A stretch of 64,000 nt of DNA from Symbiodinium sp. CCMP2592 (Eukaryota; Sar; Dinophyceae; Suessiales; Symbiodiniaceae), in the NCBI GenBank assembly GCA_905221615.1, contig CAJNDT010005368.1, positions 37,501-101,500 on the forward strand, written 5' to 3'. The translations under genes and the position numbers were made by a program. The notes under the pieces were generated by a model, which was given only the letters and a program-made list of their open reading frames with translations, was not told the DNA's origin and made no database searches. Below, in pieces: positions 11,213-64,000 of the stretch (the first letter of the stretch is position 1; the number at the start of each line of letters is the position of its first letter).

Positions 11213-14200
11213 CTCCTTGACGCCATGGGAGCTGACGTAGATTCCGTCCAAGAACTTTCGGATATCCTTCTTCTTGCAGAGGCAGGACCTCATGACTGGA
11301 AGCCCATCAGAGTGTCCCATGTAATGATGAGGGTTTTGGGGCTTAAGGGTTTAGTGTTTAGGGGTTAAGGACCCTTAGGAGTTTAGGAGGGTTTAGGGTT
11401 TAGGCGTTTCGGGCTTTCGTGCTTCAAGGGTGTAGGGGTTTAGGGGTTTAGGGGTTTAGGGAGCTAAGGATTTAGAGGTTGTTCAGCCCAGGACCCTAGG
11501 CCCTAGTCCAACTAATGAGGCCCCTGCATTCGTCTTAAATCCGAAATGGCTCTTCTAGAGGCATCATCTGCCGTGATGCTGGGGAGGCGGATGGCCGGCC
11601 CTTGTTTCAAAGGGTCTATAGGGCTCAGGGCTTAGGGACTACCTTCGGGTTTTGCGATTAGAACGGGTCTTTTACTTGGAGCGCTGCACATTCAGTACGA
11701 ACCAGAACAAGAGCTGCAGGAGAACAGTACCAGTAACAATATCATTGCACGGTCCCACACCCCAACGCCCCAAGCTAAACCCAAGACCCTAAGCCCATTA
11801 TATGCATAGTATACACCAAAGTCCCGTTCGAACTATTCAGACCCCCAGCAAAAGTAGATAACCTCCCCGTGAGGCCCCCTCTGGTGGATCAGCGCCGCAG
11901 ACTGGCCCGTGAGCTCAATGTCCGTACCGCAGACGACCAGCTCGTCCTATTTTGATGGCTTTTTAGCAGGCTTCTGGTTCGTTCTAGTGTGGGTTTTTTG
12001 GTTGAAGCCTAAACCCTAAACCCTAAACCCAAACCCTAAGGGGTTCCGGATTTTGTGGCTTTCGGTTTTTTTTGTGCGGGTTTAGGGCTTCATGAGTTGA
12101 GGGCTCAAGGGTCGGTCGGTTGAGGCCTGTTGTGGGTTTCGAATCTTCCTGTGTGTCCGGAGAACTTGTGGTTACTATTACTATAAGGGCTTAGTAATTA
12201 GGATAAGGTTTTGAGGCCCATTATAAGAAGGAACCCCCAAAATAGTATGTTCAATTACTAAGGCCCCTATATAGGACCCTATTCTAGATCCCTCCCTTAT
12301 AGACCCCTTTAGGGATCCCTTTAAAGGGAGCGTCAAGGTAATGATTTCGACCCCTTCAGTCAGTAGAAGGGCTCAGCCCAGAGACTCCAATATCCCTTAA
12401 TTAAGGAATATACCGTAAATCATATAAGGGATCCTACCATAATTTAAGGTCTATTCCTTAATTAAGGGATATTAGACTCCCCCAAATCCTAAACCCTACA
12501 CCTTATAGATCCCTTTAAAGGAACCCTAGGATTTCTTAATTAAGGGATACTGGAGTCTCTGGGAGGGAGGCTCCGGCTCTGCCGAAGCTCGGGAGGCTCT
12601 AGGTCGGGGGCCATCGCCTGTAAAGGCTCGAACAAAATTTGGGCGTTTCCGAAAATCGGAGACCCTAGGATTCCTTTAAAGGGTCTATAGGGGTTCCATA
12701 AAGGGTTTAGGGTTTAGGGTTATGGGAGCTTCCGAAAATAGGGGACCCTAGTATAATACTCTAAATAGAAGGATCCTTACTATAAGGACCACAAACAAGG
12801 CACCCCCTATTTTCGGAAACTCCCAAATGGAACAGCATCGGAGCCCGAAATCTTGAAACTAATGTAGGTGACTTAATGCTTAGAATAGGGTTTTGGGGCC
12901 AGGTGTACTTTCTAAAGGAACCCCCGAAACAAGATCGAGTTCTGCTGCATGTTGACAGGGACAAACGACTGTTCTGCGTCCTTCCTCTCGAGGAATGAAG
13001 GTTCGACCCCTTTGGACGCCGTCGGGTTTAAGGTCTAGACAGGGTAGTATAGGGGCAATACTTGTAGAGGAAGAACAAAGAAGCTTTGTGGTGTACTAAT
13101 CGTATAGCACAACTATAACAAGTAAGCTTCATAAGGATAATAAGAGTCGCAACTACTCAAGCTTTCAGGCAATGGGGTCGAGGGCTCAGTGGCCCGGAGC
13201 AGCCAAGGTTTGGGGGTTTTGGGCCATGGGTTTGGGGAGAAGGGTTTTGGTGAATCTTTGAGGGTGACATACAGTTCACTTTGGAGTTTAGGCTTTGGGC
13301 TGTCGGGCCCAGGATCCATGACAGGGGTCTCAATATTATTGCATATTCGTATGAATGTCAATATCAAAATTGATATATATATATATATATATATATATCA
13401 AGTGTACATACATACACTATACTTAAGACCAGGGCACAGTCTGCGAATTTGTCAGAGCCCAAAACTTGGCGGCTCCTTGGTGGATGCGCTCTTCTCCACC
13501 GTCACACCAGGCAGCATGTGCACCTGAAGTACAATGAGACGCCGGACACTGCTCAGCGTTCTGGGGCAGTGTATTGTAAGTATGTATGTATGCATCTATC
13601 GACCATCTGTCTATCAATCTGTCTATACATCTATATAACGATGCTAATCTGTATGTAGATGCATACATACATACATCTTCATTCAGGCACATATGTACTA
13701 TCATTGGGCTCGAAACAGTTGCACAGCATCTGGAGTGTGCAACCGTCAAAACCGTCGCCAACGTGTCGCATCAGATAAGCGTCAAACTCTCAACCCGGTG
13801 ATCTGCACCGACCTGATTTACTCCATACGTAACAGGCGTAGCAGCGCAGGGGAATGCTTTCCTCATGGAAGGGAGCCACCGCTCCGAGGCGGAATCACAC
13901 CAGCATGACTACATACTGTAGTTTACAGCAAGATGCCGCTGTATGCTGCTTTAGTATTTATCTATATCATGGGGCAGCAGCGACAAATTCTGCTTCGAAG
14001 GTCTCGCATCAGTTGCGAGCTTGCCTCCGGGAATTCAGGAGAAAATCTCCCGAAACCCAAGACTCTAAATTCCGAAACCTAAACCCTAAACCCTAGACTC
14101 TAAATTCCAAACCCTAAACCCCAAATCCTATACTGTAAATCTGAACCACGTTTAGACTCTCAGCTCCGAGCAGTTCGCACCACCTTCTCACCAAGGAAGT

Positions 14201-17200
14201 TTCGGATCTCGACGGTCTGTACCGGCAAAGGCATCAATTTTGCGGGGCTTGGGTTTAGGGCTTAGGGTTTCAGGGGGGAGGCTCGGAGGGTTGCAGATTC
14301 TTGGTGGCTTGGGGCTTTTGTGGCTGCGGGTAGTGGGGATTTGAAGTTGTTGGGTTTGTAATTTTATGGGGAAAGTAGGGTACTAAGGTTTTTGTGGCTT
14401 GGGGCTCAGGGTTTAGAGGACAACGGTCTGGTAGTTCCCAATACCATCACTCTGACTACAACCATTCGTTTCACGATTTGGAGTTTAAGAAAAAGTTTAG
14501 AGTTCGCATCAACAGGCTAAAGTGGTGCTGCCAATGTCACTGCCTCTGTCCTTTCCATTGCAGCAGTCATTGTGACTGTCATCGTTATGGTCATAGTTGC
14601 TGCCACTCCTGCTGTTCTAGTTGCATGCTCACGTCAACAGTCATCGTTAAACTCCTGCCACGCTTATCGCCACTGCTGCCCTTCTTCTTCCTCTGGGTCT
14701 ACTGTCTTCTGAACTGCAAAGTAAGCTCAAAGGCCTAAAGTCCCTCAGATGTCGGCAGCTACACTTCCAGGGTTGTGGAGAAACGGGAACTTTCCAGCCT
14801 TGCCACCGTTGATGATGTTGGCGTTGATGGGGAAGTGCGCATAGACGAGGCGCATCTTGTACTCGAACTTGTGTGCCACACCCTAGCCGAAGATGCAGGA
14901 TTTGGGGTCTGGCAGTACAGGCCCAGATTTCCGGGAGGATCCAAAAAGTAGATCCCTTGATGGGGGTTCCTATAAAGCACCCTTAGTAGTATAGGGCCCC
15001 AAATTAGGAGATCCACTTTCTAGATCCTGTCTGGGGGGTGGAACCGAATTGTCCTGGGAACCCAAGCACCTGGGGCAAGAAGCAAGACTCCTCAACGGTT
15101 TAGAGTTGGGGCCTCCGGTGGCTGCGCATGTATCTGAAAGCCGTATGCGTCCAGCAGCGTCCAGCCCAAACGACCGGAACATGAAATTGTAACTATATCT
15201 TCAAAGCCCGGAAACCTTTGTATCTGAAGATCCCCCTACCAAGCAGGGAAATGCCCAACCGGAACCCCAACCTGAACCCAGCCGAAGCTGAAATTTCCCT
15301 CTCAACTCACCTCGAAGAGGTTGCTGATGTGGCTGCACACCTGGGTGCTTCCGAAAACTAAGGGTACCTTATTTGGGGTCCCTTATAATAACGATCCTAC
15401 GATTCAGGGTGCTTTATTACGGTCCCCTACTTTCGGAAACTCCCACCTGTGGAAATCTAACGGCGGTCGGGAGCGTTTATGAAGCAGTAACAACGGAATG
15501 GCCACACCAATGGCAGTGTCAATGACTCGGCAATGACCGTTGCAACGGAAACGGTCGGCCAGAAACAAGCGAATGATAGAGCGAAGGATAGCAACGATTA
15601 CAAAACACTCGACCGTAGAAATAGACACGTCGGCACATGTTGCTATGATTATTACAAGTATTCCTCTCAGTGTCAACACTTTGTAATTTACTACTATTCT
15701 TCGTTCTTGCTAGTATGATGACCACCAGTACTGTTTCCAGTGGTGTCGGGACTGGAATTCGCATTCATTATTTACTATACCATCAGCCCAAGCGGCACTG
15801 TTGAGCATGGAGCACTGCTTGCTCTTGGCGAAGTACATGCGTGCCACCACCTGCTTTTCGTAAACCCTGGACCCTAAACCCTAAACCCTAAACCCTGGAT
15901 CCTAGACGCGTAAATTTACTATGGCAGCTGTAAGGCTCAGAACTTATGACCGGGGGTTCAGGGGGTCCAGGGTAGCACAAGCTGTCTGCAAAGAAAGCCC
16001 CCACAGAGTCCGCCGTTCAGGGCCTTCTGGTTCTTAGTAGGGAATGGGGGTTTAGGGTTTAGGGTTTAGGGTTTAGGGTTTAGGGTTTAGGGTTTAGGGT
16101 TTAGGGTTTAGGGTTTAGGGAGGGATGGATCCCTATAGCAGTCCCTGTATAATCCCCAATAATCGTCTCCATAATCCATTCCCCCATTCCCTACCAAGCA
16201 CCAGACAGTTGGCCTTCTTGCCGCCGTCGGACAGGAACAGCTCAATGGGCAAGTGCTTGAAGTCACGCTTGAGTTCACCGTGCTTGCCCTTCACCTGCGC
16301 ATGTTCACCCCTGACTTGGCATTTGCCAGAGTGACCGTTGTGACCATTCTTGCCAGTATCTGTACCATCATTTTTGCTGTCTTCACTGCTGCTATCTTTC
16401 ATGTTAATATTGCTTTAGATGGTTGAGACGACTAACAGTTCAACAAATATTCTCAGCACTTGTACCAATGGTCTCACCCACAGTGCCAGCAATCCACCCC
16501 TCAAACCCTGCGCTACTTTGCCCTCGAAGCAACTCCACAAAAAAACGGGAAGCGCCACAGTTCGCATGCTAGAGCAGCGGTTTCTGCGCAGGCTGTATGT
16601 CTCAGTATGCTTATGTGTGGCAGCTCTTGTCGGTGGACGGCAGGAGATGTTGCGGCATCCCGCGCCTCCACAACCTTGGACTTGATCTTGATGGTGATAC
16701 CTCGAACACCCGAAGAGCACCGGATATCAAATGTCAGCTTCGGCTGCACCGCCCGGAAATCTTATCAACGATTTGCTAAGGTAGAAAACCGCTCGCTGCT
16801 ACTGCTACTGCCACCGCTACTGCCACTGCTACAATTCCTGCTGCGGCTGCGGCTGCTACTGCTACTACAACTGAGCAGTGATACCACTAAATCACCGACT
16901 CTTCCTTCGACTTGACGCGACCGGCTCACTCCCCCCTAAAGGACCTCTTTTCGGAATCCTTCTAGAAGCCCTAAACCCTGAACCCTTCAAGGAACCCATT
17001 CTCGAAACCCTGAAACCCTCGTCATAGTCATAGACTGATGGGAGGCCAAAAGGGACGCTTAAGATTCTTGGGGTAGGAATTTTTTCACATGACTACTATG
17101 GGAACCCTAGTCCCTACTAAACCCCCCTAGGCTAAAACCCCTTTTCACCTCCTATGATCATAGCCATCTTCAAGCAGCCTCCCCCCTGTAATGGTGACTA

Positions 17201-19897: not shown

Positions 19898-19988
19898 CTT
19901 ACCTTTGGTTAGTAGGGAATGTAAGAATGGTGGTAATAGTGGTTATAATTGTACCCGATTCCTCCATTCCCTACTAACCAAAGGTAAG
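19898..19988. mobile_element. Family F palindromic element with perfect 24-bp inverted repeats
   Basis: The left end begins CTTACCTTTGGTTAGTAGGG and the right end is its exact inverted copy over 24 bp. The 43-bp centre is unique. Both outer ends read AAGGTAAG outward, which matches a 5' splice-site consensus. Confidence 0.9.
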
Positions 19989-22858: not shown

Positions 22859-22957
22859 GTATAGGGGCCTTAATAATCAGGGTGTTGGGGCCCATTATGT
22901 TACAATTATGATAAGGAGGCCCCCAAAATAGTATCGGTCATTCTTAAGGCCCCTAAA
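22859..22957. mobile_element. Family A element that may form a complete intron
   Basis: ATAGGGGCCTTAATAATCAGG at the left and CATTCTTAAGGCCCCTAAAT at the right. On the minus strand the sequence before it (about 23026-22969) reads RSRLTKPNGSQLWMMMPG up to GGG|GCCTGA, and the element is followed by CTATACTAG|CC, so GC and AG sit at its two edges. Confidence 0.75.
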
Positions 22958-27500: not shown

Positions 27501-30500
27501 GCACGGCGGAGCGGCTGCTTTTTGGAGGTGTCCTGCCACTGATCCTGAGTCGCTAGACTGGCCCTTGGTACTACATTTTCATCGATGTTCTTAATTATCC
27601 TCGGATGACTATCAGTACTGCAATACAGTATTTGCCATCGTTGTTCCAACAGTGTTAACGGATCAGCAATCTCCCCTTACTCGTACAGCTTCTGCCATTG
27701 CCACTGCCGCGACCACCCTCGTCATCACCACCATGTCCACACTGACGATGACGACTCCTACTACCACAACAACCACTTCCAAAATTCCTAGTGAGTGCTG
27801 GTGTAACTGTTTCTGCTCTTGCTCATGCTCATCTCACGGTCACTTCTAGTGTTGCTACAACCCCTCTCAGGAGAATCATGTCATGTCTACGCGACTCACG
27901 GGCCTGAAGCAATCAACCACACAGCCGAGTCGCGAGGTATGTCCAGGTCTGTGGAGCCAAGACCACAGAATGGCCTCCGGCTTTCGTCTACCTACTTGGA
28001 GGATCATGGGACTTAGAAACTATAGTTATAAGTCCCTTAATTGGGGTTATAAGTAACTTTAAGTATAGCGACCCCAAGAATAACCGTAGTTACTACGTCC
28101 CATGATCCTTTAAGTAGGGTTCAGGTGTGTAGGGCTTTCTTCTAAACTTGGAGCTGAAGGTTGCGAGACTCAGGCGCGATAGCACTCAGCAGGATCTGCC
28201 CCGACTGCTGCATTCCAAACATCGGCCCGGTCTCACCGTCTAACTTTCCGAAACCCCTCAGTATAAGGTTGAGGGCTTACTGGCAAGCAATCCCCCCCCA
28301 CCCTAAACCCATAGCATCCCAAAGCCCTACACACCTGAACCCTACAGGAGAAGCCCAAAAATTGGAAACCCCATAGCCGCAATCCTTAAGAGTAATGTGT
28401 AGGGAATCCCAGCACTATTTGGCCTTAAGCTGGTTTCCAACTTTATGGAGTTTACTGTAGCCCTTTCTGAAGAGGCAGTCCTCGCTGCGCAGCTCGCTCT
28501 CCGACCTTGTCCAAGCCCAACCAGGACCTCCAAATCATCACCTGGGGTTTAGGGTTTAGGGTTTAGGGTTGAGTTGGGAGCTTCCGAAAAGAGGGGACTC
28601 TTAGATAGTACCCTAAATAGTAGGATTGCTGGATCCTTATTATAAAGGACCCCCAAAAAGGTACCCCCCTAACTTTCGGAAACTCCCATTTCAGTCCTAT
28701 GCTTTATATAAGTGGCGTCTGGGGGTTCCGGATTTAGGGCCCGGGTTTGGGGTTTAGAGCACTTTCAGGCCTCGATCCGGGCTGTCGCAGGGTTTCTGGA
28801 GGGGAGAGTGAGGGTGACCGGCTCCAGGCATGAAGCTCAGGCACATGGCCTAATATAGGAGCGTAAATGATTACCGAGACTGTTTTGGTGGTTCCTTATT
28901 GTGATTATGGTATAATGGGCCCCAAAACCCTATTCTACTTATTAGGGCCCCTATATTAGAGGTGGGCATCCGGAGCTTACTGTAGTGGCCTTAACCTTTG
29001 GATTAAGGCTTTTTTGGGAAGTCCGGTCAAGCAGTAGCAGCACAAAGACCCATCTTAAGCAACTGCAACCACAGCACTGTGCGCGCGGAGATGCACAGCA
29101 GCAGAAGAGTACTAGCAGTTTACTAGCAGCTAGCAGGTACCGAAACCAGACCCAAAGATCAAACAACAAACACTACCATCAAGAACCCAAAGAAAGACGA
29201 CGACGACGACGACGACCCCACACAATTAGTACGAATACGAGTACCGCGATAAACCGAAACCCTTAACCCGAAACCCCAAGCATACCAGGAACCTTCATAC
29301 TCAGAGACTCCAATATCCCTTTATTGAGGAGTATACCTTAAATCATATTCGGGGTCCTACTACAATTCACTGTATATTCCTCAATTAAGGGATATACCTT
29401 AAATTACCCTAAACCCTATAGATCCCTTTAAAGGAACCCTAGGATCCCTTAACTAAGGGAGATATCGGAGTCTCTTTTTATAAGCCGGGGGGCCACGGAA
29501 TCCTTGGGCAAGTCGCCTCCGGACTCGAGCGCCTGTAAGATGGCTCCCCCAGGGGCTAGGCTAGGGTTTCGGGTTAAAAAAAAAGTTTCGGTTAAAAAAA
29601 AAAAGGTTTCGGGTTTCGGGCTTAGGGTTTCGGGTTTCGGGTTTAGGGTGTAGGGGTTAGGGTTTCGGGTTTCGGGTTTAGGGTTTAGGGTTTCGGGTTT
29701 AGGGTTTAGGGTTTAGGGTTTCGGGTTTAGGGTTCCCTTTTTGGGTACCCTAAATATTAGGTGCCGTAGTATAATAAGGACCCAAAAAGGGATTACGCTT
29801 CCCGGATAGGCTTCGAGTTTGGGGTTTAAGGCTCCGTCTTCGAGGGTCTAGGGTTTTAACGGTTTAGGGTTTCAGGTTTCGGATTTACAGGTCCGGGTTC
29901 TAAACTTTCAGAAACGCCTACCTCAACAGAACCCCAAAAGTTGGAAAGTTAAGTGAACAGCCAATAAGATTTCGAACGGTAGCCATACCATACCCTCTAT
30001 ATCAGTGCGATATTGTTCCCTTCTCCGGTTCCGGCGCCTCGTCCCAGACGACCGCCTTGCGGTGCAAAGATTGCAGGTGGTGCGCTGCCTGGCAGGGGTC
30101 CGTTGTATTATAATATATTTCGTTATGTCATGTTCTACTATACTGGGTTGTGACATAGTCTTCTAACACACATATATGTATATATGCACATATATGCATG
30201 CAGTGTACTGTATATTACTGTATTACATCAAGTTACAGTCTATTAGATTAGCGGCTCTTCGGGGTTTGCCCGCTCCAGCTCGCAGTCTCGAGCTCCCCCG
30301 GGGAACGCTGCGCTGTCTTTGCACGAAGCGCTCAAGCCCAACAAACTTTGTATACATCGACGAGCAAGGACATAAACTGGATGTTTTGTGTATGGAAACT
30401 GTAAACAGATTTGTACATACATATATACACAAATACATATAGTGACACGTATAAGTCCACACACATGATGCATACATACATCATACATACATACATACAT

Positions 30501-31336: not shown

Positions 31337-34300
31337 GTATATGTATATGGATATGTATGTATGTACGTACGTAAGTATGTATGTATGTATGCATCTCTCG
31401 CTCTCTCTCTCTCTCTCTCTCTTGTCACCCCTCAGCTTTCACAAATTCACCGGGACTATGAGGGAGACACTGTTCCGTATCATTCAGATCCCTACGTCAG
31501 GCTCTGAACCCCAGGCCCGAAAAGAAACTCAGCCTTGCAGCGAGACCAGCGCTTACAACTTTGGGTTTCGGGTGAATGGGTTGAGAGGTTTAGGGTTCAG
31601 AAGTTAGGGTTTAGGGTGTAGGGTAAACCAATACTCGAATCTGAGAAATCATGTTGGGAGAACCGGCCAATCGGAGAGGTTTGGGGAGGTCACTGGCTCC
31701 ATATACATACAAGCATTCCCAGAGTGCTGACAATCATCATCTTACGTTACGGAGTCGTCCCCGGCGCACCTTGCCCACTGGTCCGTGGGAACTTCATCGC
31801 CACCGATGTGCACCTTATTTCGGGTTAAGGGTTTAGCGTTTCCGCTGAGACATTTTCACTAGTCACGGGTTCTAGACGCTTCACTACGTGCGATGGAATA
31901 GTCTCCGCCATGCTACAGTCGTTTCTGGATGTTGACATCGTACGACGATTGTCCAGGATGGACTTGAGCCTCCGGAACTCCATAGGAACGCCAGGCGGCA
32001 TAGGGTGTTGCAGGAAAAAGCCGCACAAGTTCGCTGAGGATGTCCTGTGCAGGGTTGCTGGGCTTGGGATGCAATGCTGGCAATCCATGTATGCATATAG
32101 GAGTAAAGACCTACACACATCCAGTTGTATACATATTGAGTCATGTATACACTAGCTAAAGGTGTGTATATACGTTTTGTGGGTTGCTATTGACTTAATT
32201 GTACGTTCACTGATTCTTGTATATACTCTTTTTAGGTATACTTGCACTTACACTAAAACTGATACTTGCACATACGGTTACGTATAGGTCTAGGTCTAGG
32301 TGTTCTCTGCCATGCACTCCTCTACCCATCACGGTAAGATGTGTTGTTGAAGAGACATGAGGGGTCTTCTCAATATCAGGGATGCCTTGATCACACCTTT
32401 CGACAGCGGTCTTTGCTTGGGGCCCCTGGTTCTCTGAAACTCACGTGAAGGCTCAGACTATCTCACAGGCCCTGTGGTTTCAGGGTAGGGATTCAGGACT
32501 TGGGCTTCACGGAGGAGCGACACGCCGGAGCCTTGGTGAAGTTCACGGCTCGATCCGTGGGATTCAGCGTGTACTGCAAGGCACCAAACCTGAAGAAAAA
32601 AACGAGAAACAAAAACAAAACCGAGTTGGAAGCCTCCTAGAACCTACTTTGTCTAGGGCGTCTCAAAATCTCCCTAATACTAATACAGGGACCCCTCAGC
32701 ATTTTGGGTGGCATTGATACTTGGCTCATAAACCTCTTAAAAGACCCCCCCAAAAAACCCTCGTAAATCCAACCAACATGATACAACCCTACAAACCTTT
32801 CTGATAACTCGAATTCAACCCGGTACATCCCTTTAAGCGCCCTTAACATCCTTCAGATCCCTGCTACTCAAGCCGGGCCGGGAGGCTGCGTAGCCACCTG
32901 TGGGTCCCACTTGGCCGCTGCATCCGCGTTTCCTGAGAGAAAGCGGAAACATGGGTTCCTACAGTACTTCCCAAGTTTTCGGGTTTAGGGTTTAGACAGC
33001 TTTTTTAGGGCAGGAGCCCCCTCCCCCCTCTGGAGCGTCGGGCATAACTCTCACATTTAGATCGTCAGCCCGCACGCTCTGGAGGGGGGGTTTGGGAAGA
33101 AAGATGTAGTCACAAAGCTCCTGCTCCAAGCCGTCCTTCAGGTGACCGAATGGAGCTTTTTGGGGGTGACACGAAGGTCTGAATCAGAAACTCCGGATAG
33201 CCCTGAAACCCTCCTGCGGTAAACCCCATATATTCTTAGGGTGACCTCCGGATCCCACTTCATAAGGCCGGGATGCCCATCTCAGGGTACGAAGCAATCG
33301 CCGCCTTGAGGCAACCGCCACGCAAGAAAAAAATCAAAAATCCTGTCCTTAAGATGATGCCCTCGTGGTAACCCTTACAGTAGCCCGTAGTGTAGCCAAT
33401 CTAGAGGCCTTAGGCCCTGCCCTTGCAGTAGTACTCTTTGAGTAAGGGGACCCCGAACTCATCCCAAAAACACTCCCAAGCCCTAAATTCCGATACCCGA
33501 AAACCACCTTGAAGCGGAATTTGACAATATCCTCTTGGAATTTCCAGACTGCAGTGTCGAGGAATTTCACGGGCTTCTGGTCGAACATAAGGGCCCCCGA
33601 TCGTTAGAATAAGGCCTTCGGGTATATTCAGACCACTTTCGGAGAAGATCTAAGATCTCTTCCAGCAACTGGGCTATACTTTCAAACTCCTGTTTGTGGG
33701 CTTCGGGGGTTTCGTCTTTTTAGGTAGCGTTTAAAGTTCAGAGACTGGGGGGCCTCTAGGGGTGTAAACAGCCCCGAAGCCTCAGCTGGAGGTCGAGACC
33801 GAAACCTGAGGCCCCAACTTGGAGGATCATGGGACTTAGTAACTATAGTTATAAGTCCCTTAACTGGGGTTATAAGTATTTATAAGTATAGTTAACCCAA
33901 TAATAACTCTAGTTACTAAGTCCCATGATCCTGTAAGAAGTCTTGCAACCCCCCCGGGGCCGGCTCTGCCTGGTTGTGACCGGGAAGGTCGAACTCGGGC
34001 ATGACCTTCCAAGAGAGGAGTTTAGGGTTTAAGGTACGTTTCCAGGGTTTAGGGTTTAGGGGCTGGGGTGTAGGGTGGGTTTCCGGGGCTCTGGATAAGT
34101 GGATGAGTGCTATGGCTGCTATGGGGAAACCCACGGGATGCTCCGGGCAGGGGGCTTAGATTGCAAGGGCTATCACCATCTTCACCGTCATCGTCCTTTC
34201 TCCCTTCCTGCAGTTCCTGGCACTAAGATGCGGCCGTTGCTGCTCGGTTCCAGGAAGGCCGCTTGTACTGAATCACATCGTAGTACTACCCTCTTATAGT

Positions 34301-37300
34301 CCCTATAAAAACAAACTCCAATTTCCAACACCCCATTTCGGCTGCCAAGGCATGAAAACCCTATTCTAACCATCATAAACGTACGTTTTCAAACTCTTAA
34401 GGCATTCAGCTCACGTCTTCCGCCTCGATGTGCAGAGACTCTGCGAGACTGAGGATGTCCTCAATCTCCTCTCAAGATGGGTTTAAGCTAAGTGTGGGCT
34501 CAGGGTTCAGAGTTTGGGGTTTAAGCCTTAAGGTTTAAGTTTGTTCTAAAACTAAAAGGGCTTTAAGGCTGTATGCTGCTTTCCAGCGGGTCTTTGGAAG
34601 ACTTAGAAACGCAATTTTGGGACAAGAGGTCGGACATGGCGGTCCTTACAGGATCTCAGATCTCCTGACGATGTAGACCCTGCATAGCCGATTTTCAAGT
34701 TTGGTTTGGGGTGCGGGCTAAAGGGTTTAGGGCTTCCGGGTTTACGGTTTGGGGTTTAGGGCTTCAAGGTTTCGGGTTTAGAGCTTCAGGATGTAGGATT
34801 TGGGGTTTAGGGCTTCAGGGTCTGTCGTCCAAGGGCTTCTTGGTGTCTTGGGCCTTTGGCCCGAGAGCTTGGACAACCATGGCGGCCCGAATGATCAGAA
34901 TAGGGCTTTGGGCTGCATTATACTATGATTGTATAGCGACTAAAACGGTGTACATACTACTACTTCTTCAGACCCTCCACCTTCTTGTCGAGTCTTTGGT
35001 ATGCTGCTGATTCTTCAGACGCTCCACCTTGCTGTCGTGTCCTGTGTGCAGCGACACCAGTTATCCTTTAGGGATCCCTCATGCTACGTATTTGTGTTTG
35101 ATGTCACAGGATTCGACAGTTGCAACACGACAGGCCCACGAGTCGTCCTCCACTGTGTAGGAGTGGTTGTAGGGCTGGCCGTCCAACCGGGGGGTGTGGC
35201 CCTGGCCCCGAGCTTGTGGAGCAGAGACAGGACTCTGTGGCTTAGGGCTAAGGCTCGGGTTGAGGGTTGACATTTTTCCAGTTATTTTCATGTGTATGTA
35301 TGTGTATATATACATACACACATACATATATATATATATATATATGTATACTGTATGTACAAACAGATAGATAGATAGAAGGGCTGCAGGGCTGGGCCAA
35401 AAAAATAGGAGCACTGAGATATCCCCTGTGCCTTCGGCGTCGCACGGCGTGCCGCTCCGAGGGAAATGAGCTTGGGATACCTGGGATCAGAGCTCGGAGT
35501 TCGGCGTGTTGCACGAACGGTTCGACGTCCTCACAGTTCGAGACATGGCTGTCGTGATGTGGTGTTGGCTATGCCTAATGCGACATCAACGCGGGCAGGA
35601 TGATAAAGTCAGCACGCAGAAACTCAAGGATGACATCCTGAGATTCCTTACGTTCATCGCCATCGTGATTTTCTTAACAGGGAAAGCGCGCACCACCAAG
35701 GACAATTGCGACGATCTCAATGATAATTCAACAGTCATAGCGACGGCAATCACATCAAGCATGCCGATCGATGCAAGGATAACCAGCAAAGCGGCTTCTC
35801 CACCGGGAAACGCCAGCCCTGGTCATCGGTCAGGTGCCAGTGGAAGTGGTTCATCTTAAACCTGATTAGGAACTCGCGTCTTTAGGCTATGGGTCCGCAC
35901 GGGGTGACCGTTTAGATTGGATGTTGCAAGAAGAATCTTGCAAAAAGATGTTGTTTATCTCTTCTGTACTCTTGAGTGTCTGCCCAGGCTCGCTACTACA
36001 GCGGTCTACTAAATGCTGCTTGTTCTATGCTGGCATGGTACAAGACATTCATTCTGCAAAACTCTGTTAAGCATTAACTTTCGTTACATAAAAACGCTGA
36101 GTCGCGCAGTGCAGTACCTGGCTAGGCTGGACTCTACAGTACTACCTCACTGCTAGAAGATGCTAATATAGGGGCCGTAATAATTAGAATAGGGTTTTGG
36201 GGCCCCTTATACTAGAATTCTGACAAGGAACCCCCAGAATAGTATAGGTCATTCTGAAGGCCCCTATATTAGGCAAGGCGGTTTCCGGTTTAGGGCTGAG
36301 GACTCGGGAGCGAAGACACATTCGAGACTCGAAGCCCCGGAGCAGGAGGGACGTTGTATACACGGGAGTTTCCGAAAATTAGGGATACCTTTAAAGGGAT
36401 CCTTTCAGGGCTCCTTAATAGGATCTATAAGGGTTCTATAAAGGGTTTAGGGTTTAGGGTTTCCGAATATTAGGGGTACCTTATTTTGGGGTCCGTAGAA
36501 TAAGGATCCTACTATTTAGGGTAGTATATCAGGGTCCCCTATTTTCAGAAGCTCCCACCTCAACCCTGCAACCGTAAACCTCTGACCCCGCCCGCTCCAA
36601 AACCAATGCCGACCACATGAGCATAGCCCCCAAAACTCCAAACACCAAAAACTTCCGGCAATAGGCAGCGCCATGGTCCTGAGCAAGTGCTTCACCTCCT
36701 GGTGCTGACACAGACGGGAGTCTGATGCTTGCAACGAGAACGAGCTCAATTGCAGCCCGCTTCCCAGAGATTCCAATATCCCTTAATTAAGGAATATTCC
36801 TTAAATCATATTAGGGATCCTACTATAATTTAAGGAATATTCCTTAATTAAGGGATATTGGAGTCTCTGGGTTGCCCCCACTGCAACCCCCAAGTGCGCC
36901 TTCCGGGCTACCTTTTGAATGGATATCTGCGATTGCTTGAAAACAGGGTTCAAGTTTCAGGGCTTTGGGGAAAGGCAGTCCTTGGGGAAGAAGAAGTGGC
37001 GGCTCACGTCCAGCATAAGCCCCCGCCACTGCAAGGCAGGCTTGTCACGAATGCTCACCTGGGCTCAGATGCAGACTCTCCGGCCAAAAGCTTTAAGGGC
37101 ACCAAGAACCGTCCTAATGCTGGCACGGCAGGTTCCAGCAGCATTTTCATATCGTACCTTCTTGCATATACGTGTGTGTGTGTATATACATATATAGAGA
37201 GATAGATAGATAGATATAGAGAAAGAGAGAGAATTTGAGACACACACACACACACGCACACACGCATATCTGCACTCAGAAAGCATCATGGGCGACTCCC

Positions 37301-41097: not shown

Positions 41098-41776
41098 TCA
41101 CTAAACCATTAAACCATTAACAAACCATTAAATTAGTACACCGTTAAACCAATCCTTTCCCCCAAAGGACCCAAACCAATAAACCATTAAACCATTAAAC
41201 CAATCCTTTTGCCCCATGCCACTAAACCATCAAACCATTAAACATATCCCTTTACCCCATACCACTAAACCACTAAACCACTAAACCATTAAACCATTAA
41301 ACCAATCCTTTCCCCCAATGCACCTAAACCACTAAACCATTAAACCATTAAACCGTTAAACCATTAAACCATTCCTTTTGCTCCATACCACTAAACCACT
41401 AAACCATTAAACCATTAAACCGATCCGTTTGCTCCATACCACTAAACCACTAAACCATTAAACCATTAAACCAATCCGTTTGCTCCATACCACTAGACCA
41501 CTAAACCACTAAACCATTAAACCATTAAACCATTAAACCAATGCTTTCGGCCCATACAGGGATGTGTCTCTCTCTATAGGGGAAAATGATTGGTTTAATG
41601 GTTTAATGGTTTAGTGGTTTGGGTCCATTGGGGGAAATGATTGGTTTAATGGTTTAATGGTTTATTGGTTTGGGTCCATTGGGGGAAAGGATTGGTTTAA
41701 TGGTTTAATGGTTTATTGGTTTAGTGGCATGGAGCAAAAGGAATGGTTTAATGGTTTAATGGTTTAGTGGTTTGGG
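41098..41776. repeat. Inverted minisatellite built from AAACCATT units
   Basis: About eight units of 43-65 bp run forward to 41552 (CACTAAACCACTAAACCATT...AATCCTTTTGC.CCATAC). A 36-bp spacer follows, then four units run in the inverse orientation from 41589 (ATTGGTTTAATGGTTTAATG...GGGTCCATTGGGGGAAA). The arms can pair as a very long hairpin. Confidence 0.95.
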
Positions 41777-41814
41777 TGTGCAAAAACCCAGGGGACCCCA
41801 TATAGGGGGGTACC

Positions 41815-43453: not shown

Positions 43454-43556
43454 TGGGTGGTTGTCAACATTATGGCCCCTTTTTGGGTACCCTAAATATT
43501 AGGTGCCGTACCATAATAGGGACCCAAAAAGGGAGCCTCATTTTGGCAACCACCCA
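43454..43556. mobile_element. Palindromic element, family C
   Basis: TGGGTGGTTGTCAACATTAT at the left and CATTTTGGCAACCACCCA at the right. Core TTTTTGGGTACCCTAAATAT and GGGACCCAAAAAGGGA. Shares its core with 29733-29795. Confidence 0.92.
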
Positions 43557-46800: not shown

Positions 46801-48362
46801 ATCTCGAGCCAAAACGACCGAGATCAGAATCGGGGCGGTGCACATGAAAGCATCACAACGGTGTCGGGCCAGCATCGGGCTTCAGCATCGAGGCTCCAAA
46901 TCGAACACCCTCTGAAAGTCCCAACCAGTGTTCGCGGTTTGGGAATTCGCACTCAGAGGACTGTGAGCCTCGTTCTTCCTATTGCTATCCCGGAAGTCTC
47001 CGCCATGCAACCATCGCCTATCACTTCCAAGACCTTGCAGCACAGGCTTGCTCCCGGGGCCCCTCTTTAAAGGCGCACCAGAAGCACCACAGCCAGGACG
47101 ACGGTACAAGCCGCGATCCTGGTGTTCTGGCTCTGGAACCTCGGCCAGGCCCTAGACTATCCCACCGCCCACAGCGCCCTACCTCTACTCTTCGCATCGA
47201 CCTTGGTGTTCATGAACCCTCAAACGACCACTCGCCGGCGCTTGGGCATGGCACCTGCTCAGGACGGTGGGATCTGTCCGCCTGAACACAGTTTCGGCTG
47301 TGTCACTTTGTGCGCTTGGGCAGAGAGCTTCAGGGGTTGCCGGGCTTGCGGTGGAGCTCTGGCTAGGCCTCAGGGCTTGGGGCAACAGCTTGAGGTTGGT
47401 TGTTATAGACCGAGGGGGTGATAGGTTCCGGCTCACGGCTAGTGGAATTTTGAAGACATGTGCCAGCTGCGAGTCATTCCGCATCGCGATTTCGGATTTC
47501 ATGTTTCCCAGCGCCCTGGACACCGAGCAACATGAGGAAACCCCGGGCAATGATCTTCCGAGATCCAAGCAGAGACCTGGATTGATGTTGCAAAGGTCAC
47601 CCAAACCTAAAACCCACAAATCTGAAACTTCCCTAAGCCCTAAAGTCATAGGGATTTTCAGTGTGGTAAGGCCCCCCCTACCCCCTACCCCCTACCCCCC
47701 TAAGGGTCATTGAAGTCTCTTCAACTTGCGCGAAGAGCCTCCAGCACTCTGTCTTGCCCTCGCCCAGGTACGATTGCACCTGCAGCCGGTTTAGGGTTTA
47801 GGGTTTAGACAACTGTCTAGTGCTTGGTAGGGGTTGGGGAAGGGATCCCTATAGAGTCCCGAAAGTAATCCCCAATAATAGTCCCCAATATCCATTCCCC
47901 CATTCCCTAGTAAGCACCAGGGAGACAACCGAAAGCACCCGGGAAAGCAAGAGACGCTCGAAACCACAGTGGCAAGTTGCAAAAAGCAACAGACACAATA
48001 AGATTAACATTGCAATATCAGCGGCAGCAGTAGTAGCAGTAGTAGCAGTAGTAGCAGTAGCAGTAGCAGTAGCAGTAGCAGTAGCAGTAGCAGTAGCAGT
48101 AGCAGTAGCAGTAGCAGTAGCAGTAGCAGTAGCAGTAGCAGTAGCAGTAGCAGTAGCAGTAGCAGTAGCAGTAGCAGTAGCAGTAGCAGTAGCAGTAGCA
48201 GTAGCAGTAGCAGTAGCAGTAGCAGTAGCAGTAGCAGTAGCAGTAGCAGTAGCAGTAGCAGTAGCAGTAGCAGTAGCAGTAGCAGTAGCAGTAGCAGTAG
48301 CAGTAGCAGTAGCAGTAGTGGTGGTAGTAGTAGTAGTAGTTGTAGTAGTAGTAGTAGTAGTT

Positions 48363-59871: not shown

Positions 59872-60680
59872 ACAGGGGAGGCCCTTCGAGGCTTCCTACG
59901 ATTCTGTAGGAAAAAAGAGCTCCTGCAAGAAGAGCTTCCCAGCGCAAAAACAGCCCACGTACAGCAAGCAATCGAAACAGTTGAAGCTACAAGCTGAGAT
60001 TAACATCTACCAGTAGATGCCGCAAAATCCTCGCATCAGCGTGCCAGCATTTAGCTGCAGCAAACTTATCAAGAGCATTACCACAGGAGGGCGGCGAGCC
60101 TCATGTGCATCAGAGGTGAGCCTGTTTAACGTCTTTGGTCTCGACCCAAACTGCAGATAGCAGACGTGCTTTTTGCAGCCTTACTTCAAAGCAGCAAATC
60201 CAAATGCAGCGCAAGATGTGCGATGGAACTGGGCCACACCTGCAGCCACTGTCCTGAACATCTTCTTCAGTTCCACTCTTCTCTGAAACATAATGCGCGA
60301 GCTGGAGAAACCATGGGAACCCACATGTACCCCACAGGGAACCGAGCTGACACACTGCAAGAGCCAAGGGAGCCCACCCAGACCTTTGCGCAATATATGC
60401 TGGGAAAACCATGGGAACCCACTTGCAATGCTGCAAAAAGCAAGGAACCCACAGGGAATCCACCGTCGACGCTGTTAAACCATGGGGACCCAAAAACTGC
60501 TGCAAAAAACTAGGAAACCCACAGGGAACCCAGCTGACATGCTGCAAAAGCCAAAAGAGCCTATTGGAAAACCATGGGAACCCACTTCAAATGCTGCAAA
60601 AACCCGGGAACCAAACAAAGAACCCACCGTATCGACGGTGAAAAACCATGGGAGCCCACTTAAAAATGCTGCAAAAACTA
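59872..60680. repeat. Segmental duplication, first copy
   Basis: Begins ACAGGGGAGGCCCTTCGAGG. Matches 63203-64000 with few substitutions and short deletions, offset 3331 bp at the start. The left breakpoints are sharp: TGGTGTT precedes here, TTTCCCGC there. Confidence 0.97.
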
Positions 60681-63202: not shown

Positions 63203-64000
63203 ACAGGGGAGGCCCTTCGAGGCTTCCTACGATTCTGTAGGAAAAAAGAGCTCCTGCAAGTGGAGCTTCCCAGCGCAAAAACAGCCCACGTACAGCAAGC
63301 AATCGAAACAGTTGAAGCTACAAGCTGAGATTAACATCTGCCAGTAGATGCCGCAAAATCCTCGCATCAGCGTGCCAGCATTTAGCCGCAGCAAACTTAT
63401 CAAGAGCATTACCACAGGAGGGCGGCGAGCCTCATGTGCATCAGAGGTGAGCCTGTTTAACGTCTTTGGTCTCGACCCAAACTGCAGATAGCAGACGTGC
63501 TTTTTGCAGCCTTACTTCAAAGCAGCAAATCCAAATGCAGCGCAAGATGTGCGATGGAACTGGGCCACACCTGCAGCCACTGTCCTGAACATCTTCTTCA
63601 GTTCCACTCTTCTCTGAAACATAATGCGCGAGCTGGAGAAACCATGGGAACCCACATGTACCCCACAGGGAACCGAGCTGACACACTGCAAGAGCCAAGG
63701 GAGCCCGCCCAGACCTTTGCGCAATATATGCTGGGAAAACCATGGGGCAATGCTGCAAAAAGCAAGGAACCCACAGGGAATCCACCGTCGATGCTGTTAA
63801 ACCATGGGAACCCAAAAACTGCTGCAAAAAACTAGGAAACCCACAGGGAACCCAGCTGACATGCTGCAAAAGCCAAAAGAGCCTATTGGAAAACCATGGT
63901 AACCCACTTCAAATGCTGCAAAAACCCGGGAACCAAACAGAACCCACCGTATCGACGGTGAAAAACCATGGGAGCCCACTTAAAAATGCTGCAAAAACTA
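63203..64000. repeat. Segmental duplication, second copy (runs off the window)
   Basis: Repeats 59872 onward. Between CCATGGG and GCAATGCTGC a short stretch (AACCCACTT) is missing relative to the first copy. The minus-strand frame stays open in both copies (145 and 142 codons) because the loss is nine bases. Confidence 0.97.

Follow-up and report, generated by a model that had tools for sequence, protein, structure and literature searches.

A perfect interstitial telomeric array, (TTTAGGG)10, is located at 16051..16120 (+ strand) of the 64,000-nt window analysed here (C4922:37501-101500 of the 1.098-Gb assembly of Symbiodinium sp. CCMP2592), inside a short TIR element that in turn lies in intron 3 of the RPL9 gene. 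Comparison with other copies of the element supports the reading that the array is an insertion into one copy, at a site that is normally empty, the empty state being taken from other family members and not from an orthologous RPL9 intron. The array was probably made by break repair, with telomere repeats being added to an exposed G-rich 3' end of the element arm.

Array, element and host intron

The ten perfect TTTAGGG units that the first-pass annotation had read within inverted repeats were recovered both from the sequence itself and by TRF (16048-16120, period 7, 10.4 copies, 100% match). The G-strand is on the + strand, the array reads CCCTAAA in RPL9 sense, and GGG of the target arm stands directly before it. 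Thirty exact TTTAGGG double units were counted in the window and none in 100 shuffles, so the array is beyond chance. It is internal and non-terminal, near 53.5 kb of the 568434-nt contig C4922, and within a gene.

The element (family CTGTCTGGTTCTTAGTAGGG...; 16026..16208, - strand) is non-coding and measures 183 nt with the array; the family consensus, built from same-genome copies, is 113 nt long and consists of 35-nt inverted arms (CTGTCTGGTTCTTAGTAGGGAATGGGGGAATGGAT...) around a 43-nt core. The inverted arms visible in the RPL9 copy (16026-16050 and 16181-16205; 25 nt, 92% complementary) are close to the repeats annotated earlier at 16027-16050 and 16181-16204. In RPL9 sense, arm comparison placed the outer part of the 5' arm at 16181..16208 (-) and the outer part of the 3' arm, which lacks the final 3 nt of the consensus tip, beyond the array at 16026..16050 (-). 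The array had been described as lying directly against the left repeat; it does abut the visible left arm, but measured on the consensus it interrupts the 35-nt arm, approximately 25-29 nt from the outer tip. An 8-nt direct repeat, GGCCTTCT, is found at the element ends, one copy (16021..16028, +) overlapping the tip and the second (16211..16218, +) spanning the 5' splice site of intron 3.

A second copy of the element was identified in the window by sequence comparison (47813..47925, -) and, as had been noticed for 47818-47920, has no internal array; a tract of three telomere units (47788..47808, +), left out of the earlier reading, lies 5 nt outside this copy. Further short TIR elements of several families were seen in the window at 12383-12479, 12723-12828, 15350-15446, 19898-19988, 22862-22955, 27991-28118, 33823-33932, 36163-36272 and 43454-43556, including related pairs (e.g. 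those starting at 27991 and 33823) and one, 19898-19988, that has part of its arm in common with the RPL9 element.

The host gene was identified as RPL9 (uL6) on the minus strand by a PDB sequence search, in which 54 sequences matched, all with uL6, L6 or L9 names except one with a locus name; the two best protein matches were RPL9 of Symbiodinium microadriaticum and RPL9 of Symbiodinium sp. CCMP2456. The exon junction DGGKK|VVARMYF as well as exon 3 (VKGKHGELKRDFKHLPIELFLSDGGKK; 16214..16294, -) and exon 4 (VVARMYFAKSKQCSMLNS; 15797..15850, -) were taken from an alignment that included nine relatives, of which five bear dinoflagellate names. Predicted intron 3 (15851..16213, -) is a 363-nt GC-AG intron (AAG|GC...GCAG|G) that contains the element and also a degenerate telomere-like tract (15861..15896, -) in the orientation opposite to that of the array. 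The earlier placement of the array within an RPL9 intron was thus borne out by the PDB matches, the alignment and the intron predicted at 15851..16213. Pfam, run on three single-strand pieces of the window of 10 kb each, returned reverse transcriptase only; RPL9 was missed by these scans probably because its exons are short, and they thus say little on other genes. The reverse-transcriptase domain (~204-818, +; Pfam RVT_1, E 1.6e-15) marks a retroelement-like piece and sits in a GC-rich block (64% GC over 1-2000). Rfam at gathering thresholds gave no matches in the window.

The element family has the characters of a MITE: it is short and non-coding, with TIRs and many copies (113-nt consensus, 35-nt arms, 937 exact arms), and it shows target site duplication, flanking direct repeats of at least 4 nt being present at 9 of 27 copies versus 1.6 in shuffled pairings (0 of 2000 shuffles reached 9). 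This test used 27 of 39 copies; the 12 left out mostly had truncated ends, and a few of those were readable. Introners are defined by copies that generate new introns, with splice sites either brought along or recruited. The RPL9 intron instead extends 175 nt past the element, to 15851; as this copy does not form the intron alone, it is classed only as MITE-like. Scans of viral contigs for the element gave no matches.

The insertion site in other copies, and rival readings

An exact intact arm across the insertion point was found 937 times genome-wide (up to two arms per copy), against 4 places, RPL9 included, at which the arm runs into TTTAGGG at that base. For the array-free query, the best 40 of 1679 first-look candidates were scored, 38 of which were distinct by their flanks. 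Telomeric DNA was absent from 33 of these 38 copies (two of the 33, L031 and L036, are otherwise broken) and was found in 5 (L001, L011, L019, L003 and L017), either within the element or where its 3' arm is broken; a long perfect array was carried by the RPL9 copy only. For the array-containing query, internal tracts were found in 14 of 37 element-bearing loci; this sample (40 loci, best of 2058 candidates, with L022, L025 and L030 lacking the element) is biased toward arrays and was unused for frequencies. One of the 14 tracts (L028) consists of CCCTATA repeats within the arm in place of CCCTAAA, which may represent a variant of the telomere motif or the expansion of a mutated unit.

The first-pass annotation had proposed that telomere repeat was inserted cleanly into one copy and had held that arrays of varied length at different points in most copies would favour slippage; with 937 intact arms versus 4 TTTAGGG junctions and 33 of 38 copies empty, the counts fall on the side of insertion. 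An ITS is characterized by insertion where relatives have an empty site, and at the level of family copies this holds for the array; slippage of a resident unit is disfavoured. Slippage would have started from the G-rich arm (TAGGGAATGGGGG), which would have mutated to one TTTAGGG unit and then grown by slippage or unequal exchange. In favour of this, the arm resembles telomere sequence in its G-rich composition, slippage does occur in tandem arrays, and telomere-like words border most of 24 unselected perfect arrays (see below). However, the 937 exact arms carry no unit, an inserted unit was seen at the site in 0 of the 33 telomere-free copies (insertions of at least 6 nt were listed; a unit made by point changes would escape), and at the other three exact junctions the tract is followed by a repeated piece of arm, of a kind that slippage does not make. 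This origin is considered unlikely.

A source copy that already bore the tract could also have transposed into RPL9, bringing the array with it. Tract-bearing copies can move: L014, L023 and L026 have tract, junctions and duplication in common, although the similarity of their flanks is within the range of random pairs, and their junction word occurs at 10 places in nine loci (at most 1 mismatch; three of the nine loci were read). One sub-family was thus propagated together with its internal tract. For the RPL9 array, such an arrival is given a smaller chance than slippage: the exact junction exists at 4 places only, the other three of which hold imperfect tracts with a repeated arm piece, and no second long perfect array was found at the site among 40 loci, the best-scored part of 2058 candidates.

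The family might, thirdly, capture telomere DNA specifically, for example when ends made by transposase are healed by telomerase, and an element that captures telomere sequence had been among the earlier suggestions. The 14 tract-bearing loci among 37 with the element point this way, but they come from the sample selected for arrays, whereas the array-free sample gave 5 of 38. In 264 kb with 83 TIR elements and 186 tracts, 5 tracts were inside elements versus 10.1 expected (the scan sees compact elements only, which lowers the inside count) and 7 were within 20 nt of a TIR-element end versus 5.7 expected; in the window, 3 tracts were within 10 nt of TIR elements versus 1.8 expected (P 0.27). 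Enrichment of tracts at TIR elements was rejected by both tests; specific capture of telomere DNA by the element is thus unsupported, and a mechanism of this type is very improbable. An assembly artefact (a wrong repeat number or a collapsed repeat) is hardly credible, as simple arrays can be mis-sized but this one is just 70 nt long, lies in a gene and has similar perfect counterparts at many places in the assembly.

Junctions and proposed repair

Break repair at the arm, the preferred reading, is favoured by the junctions. At the RPL9 junction (GGGAATGGGGG|TTTAGGG) the G-run of the arm passes directly into the G-strand of the array; such an end could be extended by telomerase. The other three exact junctions are at L029 and L107, which belong to the family of the RPL9 element, and at L108, a relative with the same arm and a different core; in all three an imperfect tract is followed by a return to an earlier point of the arm, and 9-14 nt of arm are repeated exactly, a pattern that staggered-break repair would leave but slippage would not. 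Uniform placement of tracts predicts 0.4-0.8 such junctions among 941-2000 arms (a range that reflects the uncertain true arm number) and 4 were observed (P 0.0006-0.009), an excess that is consistent with a preferred G-rich 3' end. Repeated element sequence (6-18 nt, exact) also flanks the in-element tracts of L014/L023/L026, L027, L007 and L024, and likewise that of L046, a member of another TIR family. At the RPL9 array itself the duplication is at most 4-5 nt and doubtful, and in-register bases before the array are indistinguishable from a partial inserted unit.

Perfect arrays elsewhere were analysed in an unselected set of 24 (23 loci, one with two arrays). Arrays whose first unit follows GG or GGG number 13, where uniform phase predicts 6.9 (P 0.007), and the last unit is complete in 8, where it predicts 3.4 (P 0.015); the start and end classes were picked after the data were seen. 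Duplications of at least 7 nt flanked 3 of the 24 versus 1.4 in the control (shuffle maximum 5); a general association of perfect arrays with flanking duplications is unsupported. With a strict mask, non-telomeric DNA was close on both sides of 2 of the 24, both at L089; most perfect arrays border telomere-like words, and slippage or homogenisation could thus make perfect runs there. In the 264 kb, direct repeats flanked 17 of 294 tract clusters versus 3.1 (score 8), a small excess in which tandem-repeat units are included. The 3' junction (TTTAGGG)n-AGGGA of the long perfect arrays at L001, L022 and L025 was considered as a template-derived end and rejected: it was present in 0 of the 24 unselected arrays, and it is shared because the matches were chosen by a query ending in AGGGATG. 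Sequence like TATAGATCCCTTAAAGG recurs beside telomere tracts at L007, L027, L040 and L058 and is possibly a small repeat that travels with tracts or targets them.

The proposed course of events is as follows. A MITE- or introner-like TIR element lies 5 nt inside RPL9 intron 3 and would have been in place first; a later break in the G-run of its arm (GGGAATGGGGG^AATGGAT) would have exposed a 3' end that was rich in G and matched the register of the telomere repeat. About ten TTTAGGG units may then have been added, by telomerase or by a telomere-derived DNA or RNA patch, and the other end rejoined, leaving a few extra nucleotides (AGGG). On this view the array would be a short ITS that arose in a single step and has stayed perfect on account of its young age; the longest other perfect run in 200 kb of sampled sequence has 4 units, which suggests that ten perfect units represent a young array. 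The same process may have seeded much of the genome, older tracts having decayed, with the element as a target and, in at least one sub-family, a tract-bearing copy itself being copied onward. Telomerase or telomere-derived break repair, as suggested earlier, fits best but is unproved, and telomerase as the agent is inferred.

Telomere-like DNA across the genome and known systems

The array is not isolated: the window contains 28 telomere-like tracts, and three first-order Markov controls contained none. Twenty further 10-kb stretches (200 kb; picked at round coordinates in contigs already sampled, and hence arbitrary and not random) held 158 tracts, which cover 4.6% of bases and are present in 18 of the 20 stretches. 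Perfect runs in these 200 kb comprised 89 of two units, 15 of three and 3 of four, with none longer. Perfect (TTTAGGG)8 gave 13744 genome matches in overlapping register, a count that true chromosome ends may inflate, and its reversed control gave 0. Among the matches listed, 100 places on contigs C1-C57 corresponded to 24 arrays of 8-20 units; extrapolation of this ratio gives an estimated ~3300 perfect arrays of at least 8 units. The rarity of the array that the first-pass annotation had implied was wrong at about three thousand such arrays, and by present evidence the RPL9 array is typical of this genome, an ordinary member of a very abundant class. Between 17968 and 47808 of the window the tracts show a strong strand bias: in all telomere-like tracts but one, TTTAGGG is on the + strand. 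The L089 locus carries a perfect 10-unit array (C3:228322-228391, -) and a perfect 11-unit array (228502-228578, +), which are 110 nt apart in opposite orientation, with their G-strands outward.

The dinoflagellate telomere motif is given as TTTAGGG (PMC11453091). In the accessible parts of a literature of mostly open-access papers on dinoflagellate and Symbiodinium telomeres, introners and MITEs, no description of such ITS density in Symbiodinium was found. Interstitial telomere signals are reported as rare in the consulted part of a FISH study of Karenia (PMC6395649), and short ITSs are said to be too short for efficient FISH detection (PMC7215372). Mammalian short ITSs, as far as covered by the portion of PMC7215372 available to us, resemble the present array in their internal telomere motif of few to few hundred units, an empty related site, in-register bases at the break, an occasional direct target duplication and intronic location. 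They are attributed there to the one-step addition of repeats at a break, with in-register nucleotides (31 of 40 informative loci) and deletions or duplications. Here, in contrast, the motif is TTTAGGG, the host is a dinoflagellate and the empty state comes from repeat copies instead of orthologues. By analogy, the break-repair mechanism argued for mammalian short ITSs would be the best mechanism for the Symbiodinium array. Densities differ widely, although under different criteria: 158 tracts per 200 kb in Symbiodinium versus 229 human loci of at least 4 units genome-wide (PMC7215372). Of human ITSs, 31% are intronic (PMC7215372).

The element can be compared with the introner of Symbiodinium microadriaticum, for which a 4-bp TSD and TIRs are described in the part of PMC9860276 consulted; Symbiodinium introners are also treated in Roy et al. 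2023, as cited by PMC11453091. Both are short non-coding TIR elements, the flanking repeats of at least 4 nt (9 of 27) fit a 4-bp TSD, and the element consensus ends ...AG like Symbiodinium introners (PMC9860276). Unlike these, the RPL9 element is not the whole intron (175 nt lie beyond it), and the likeness is one of description. Introner elements of Amoebophrya, likewise a dinoflagellate, have inverted repeats together with direct repeats at intron boundaries (PMC7789003, from the section consulted); they belong to another lineage, and the likeness is again one of description.

It is possible, and is put forward tentatively, that telomere writing into breaks is ongoing genome-wide in Symbiodinium, that several per cent of the genome (tens of Mb) arose in this way as TTTAGGG tracts ranging from perfect to decayed, many of them intronic, and that introner-like elements both take up tracts in their G-rich arms and now and then bring them to new sites. 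The abundance of tracts and the built-in empty sites are the more interesting part. Hundreds of related copies serve as empty sites for studying the entry of telomere repeats, which is usually done with orthologues of other species. Should this density extend throughout the genus, dinoflagellates would stand out as an extreme natural example of telomere DNA serving to patch breaks and to supply raw material for introns, and a role of telomerase in interstitial insertion would be testable at thousands of sites in one genome.

Other repeats were noted in the window. Minisatellite blocks at 41122-41540 and 41579-41777, with units of approximately AAACCATT and its complement TGGTTTAA, face each other as a large inverted repeat. 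Near-identical open frames (SGFPWFSNRLFWLLQHVSWVPCG...) at 60110-60586 and 63441-63908 (-) represent a local duplication ~3.3 kb apart, the first of them adjoining a tandem repeat with 42-, 74- and 222-nt periods.
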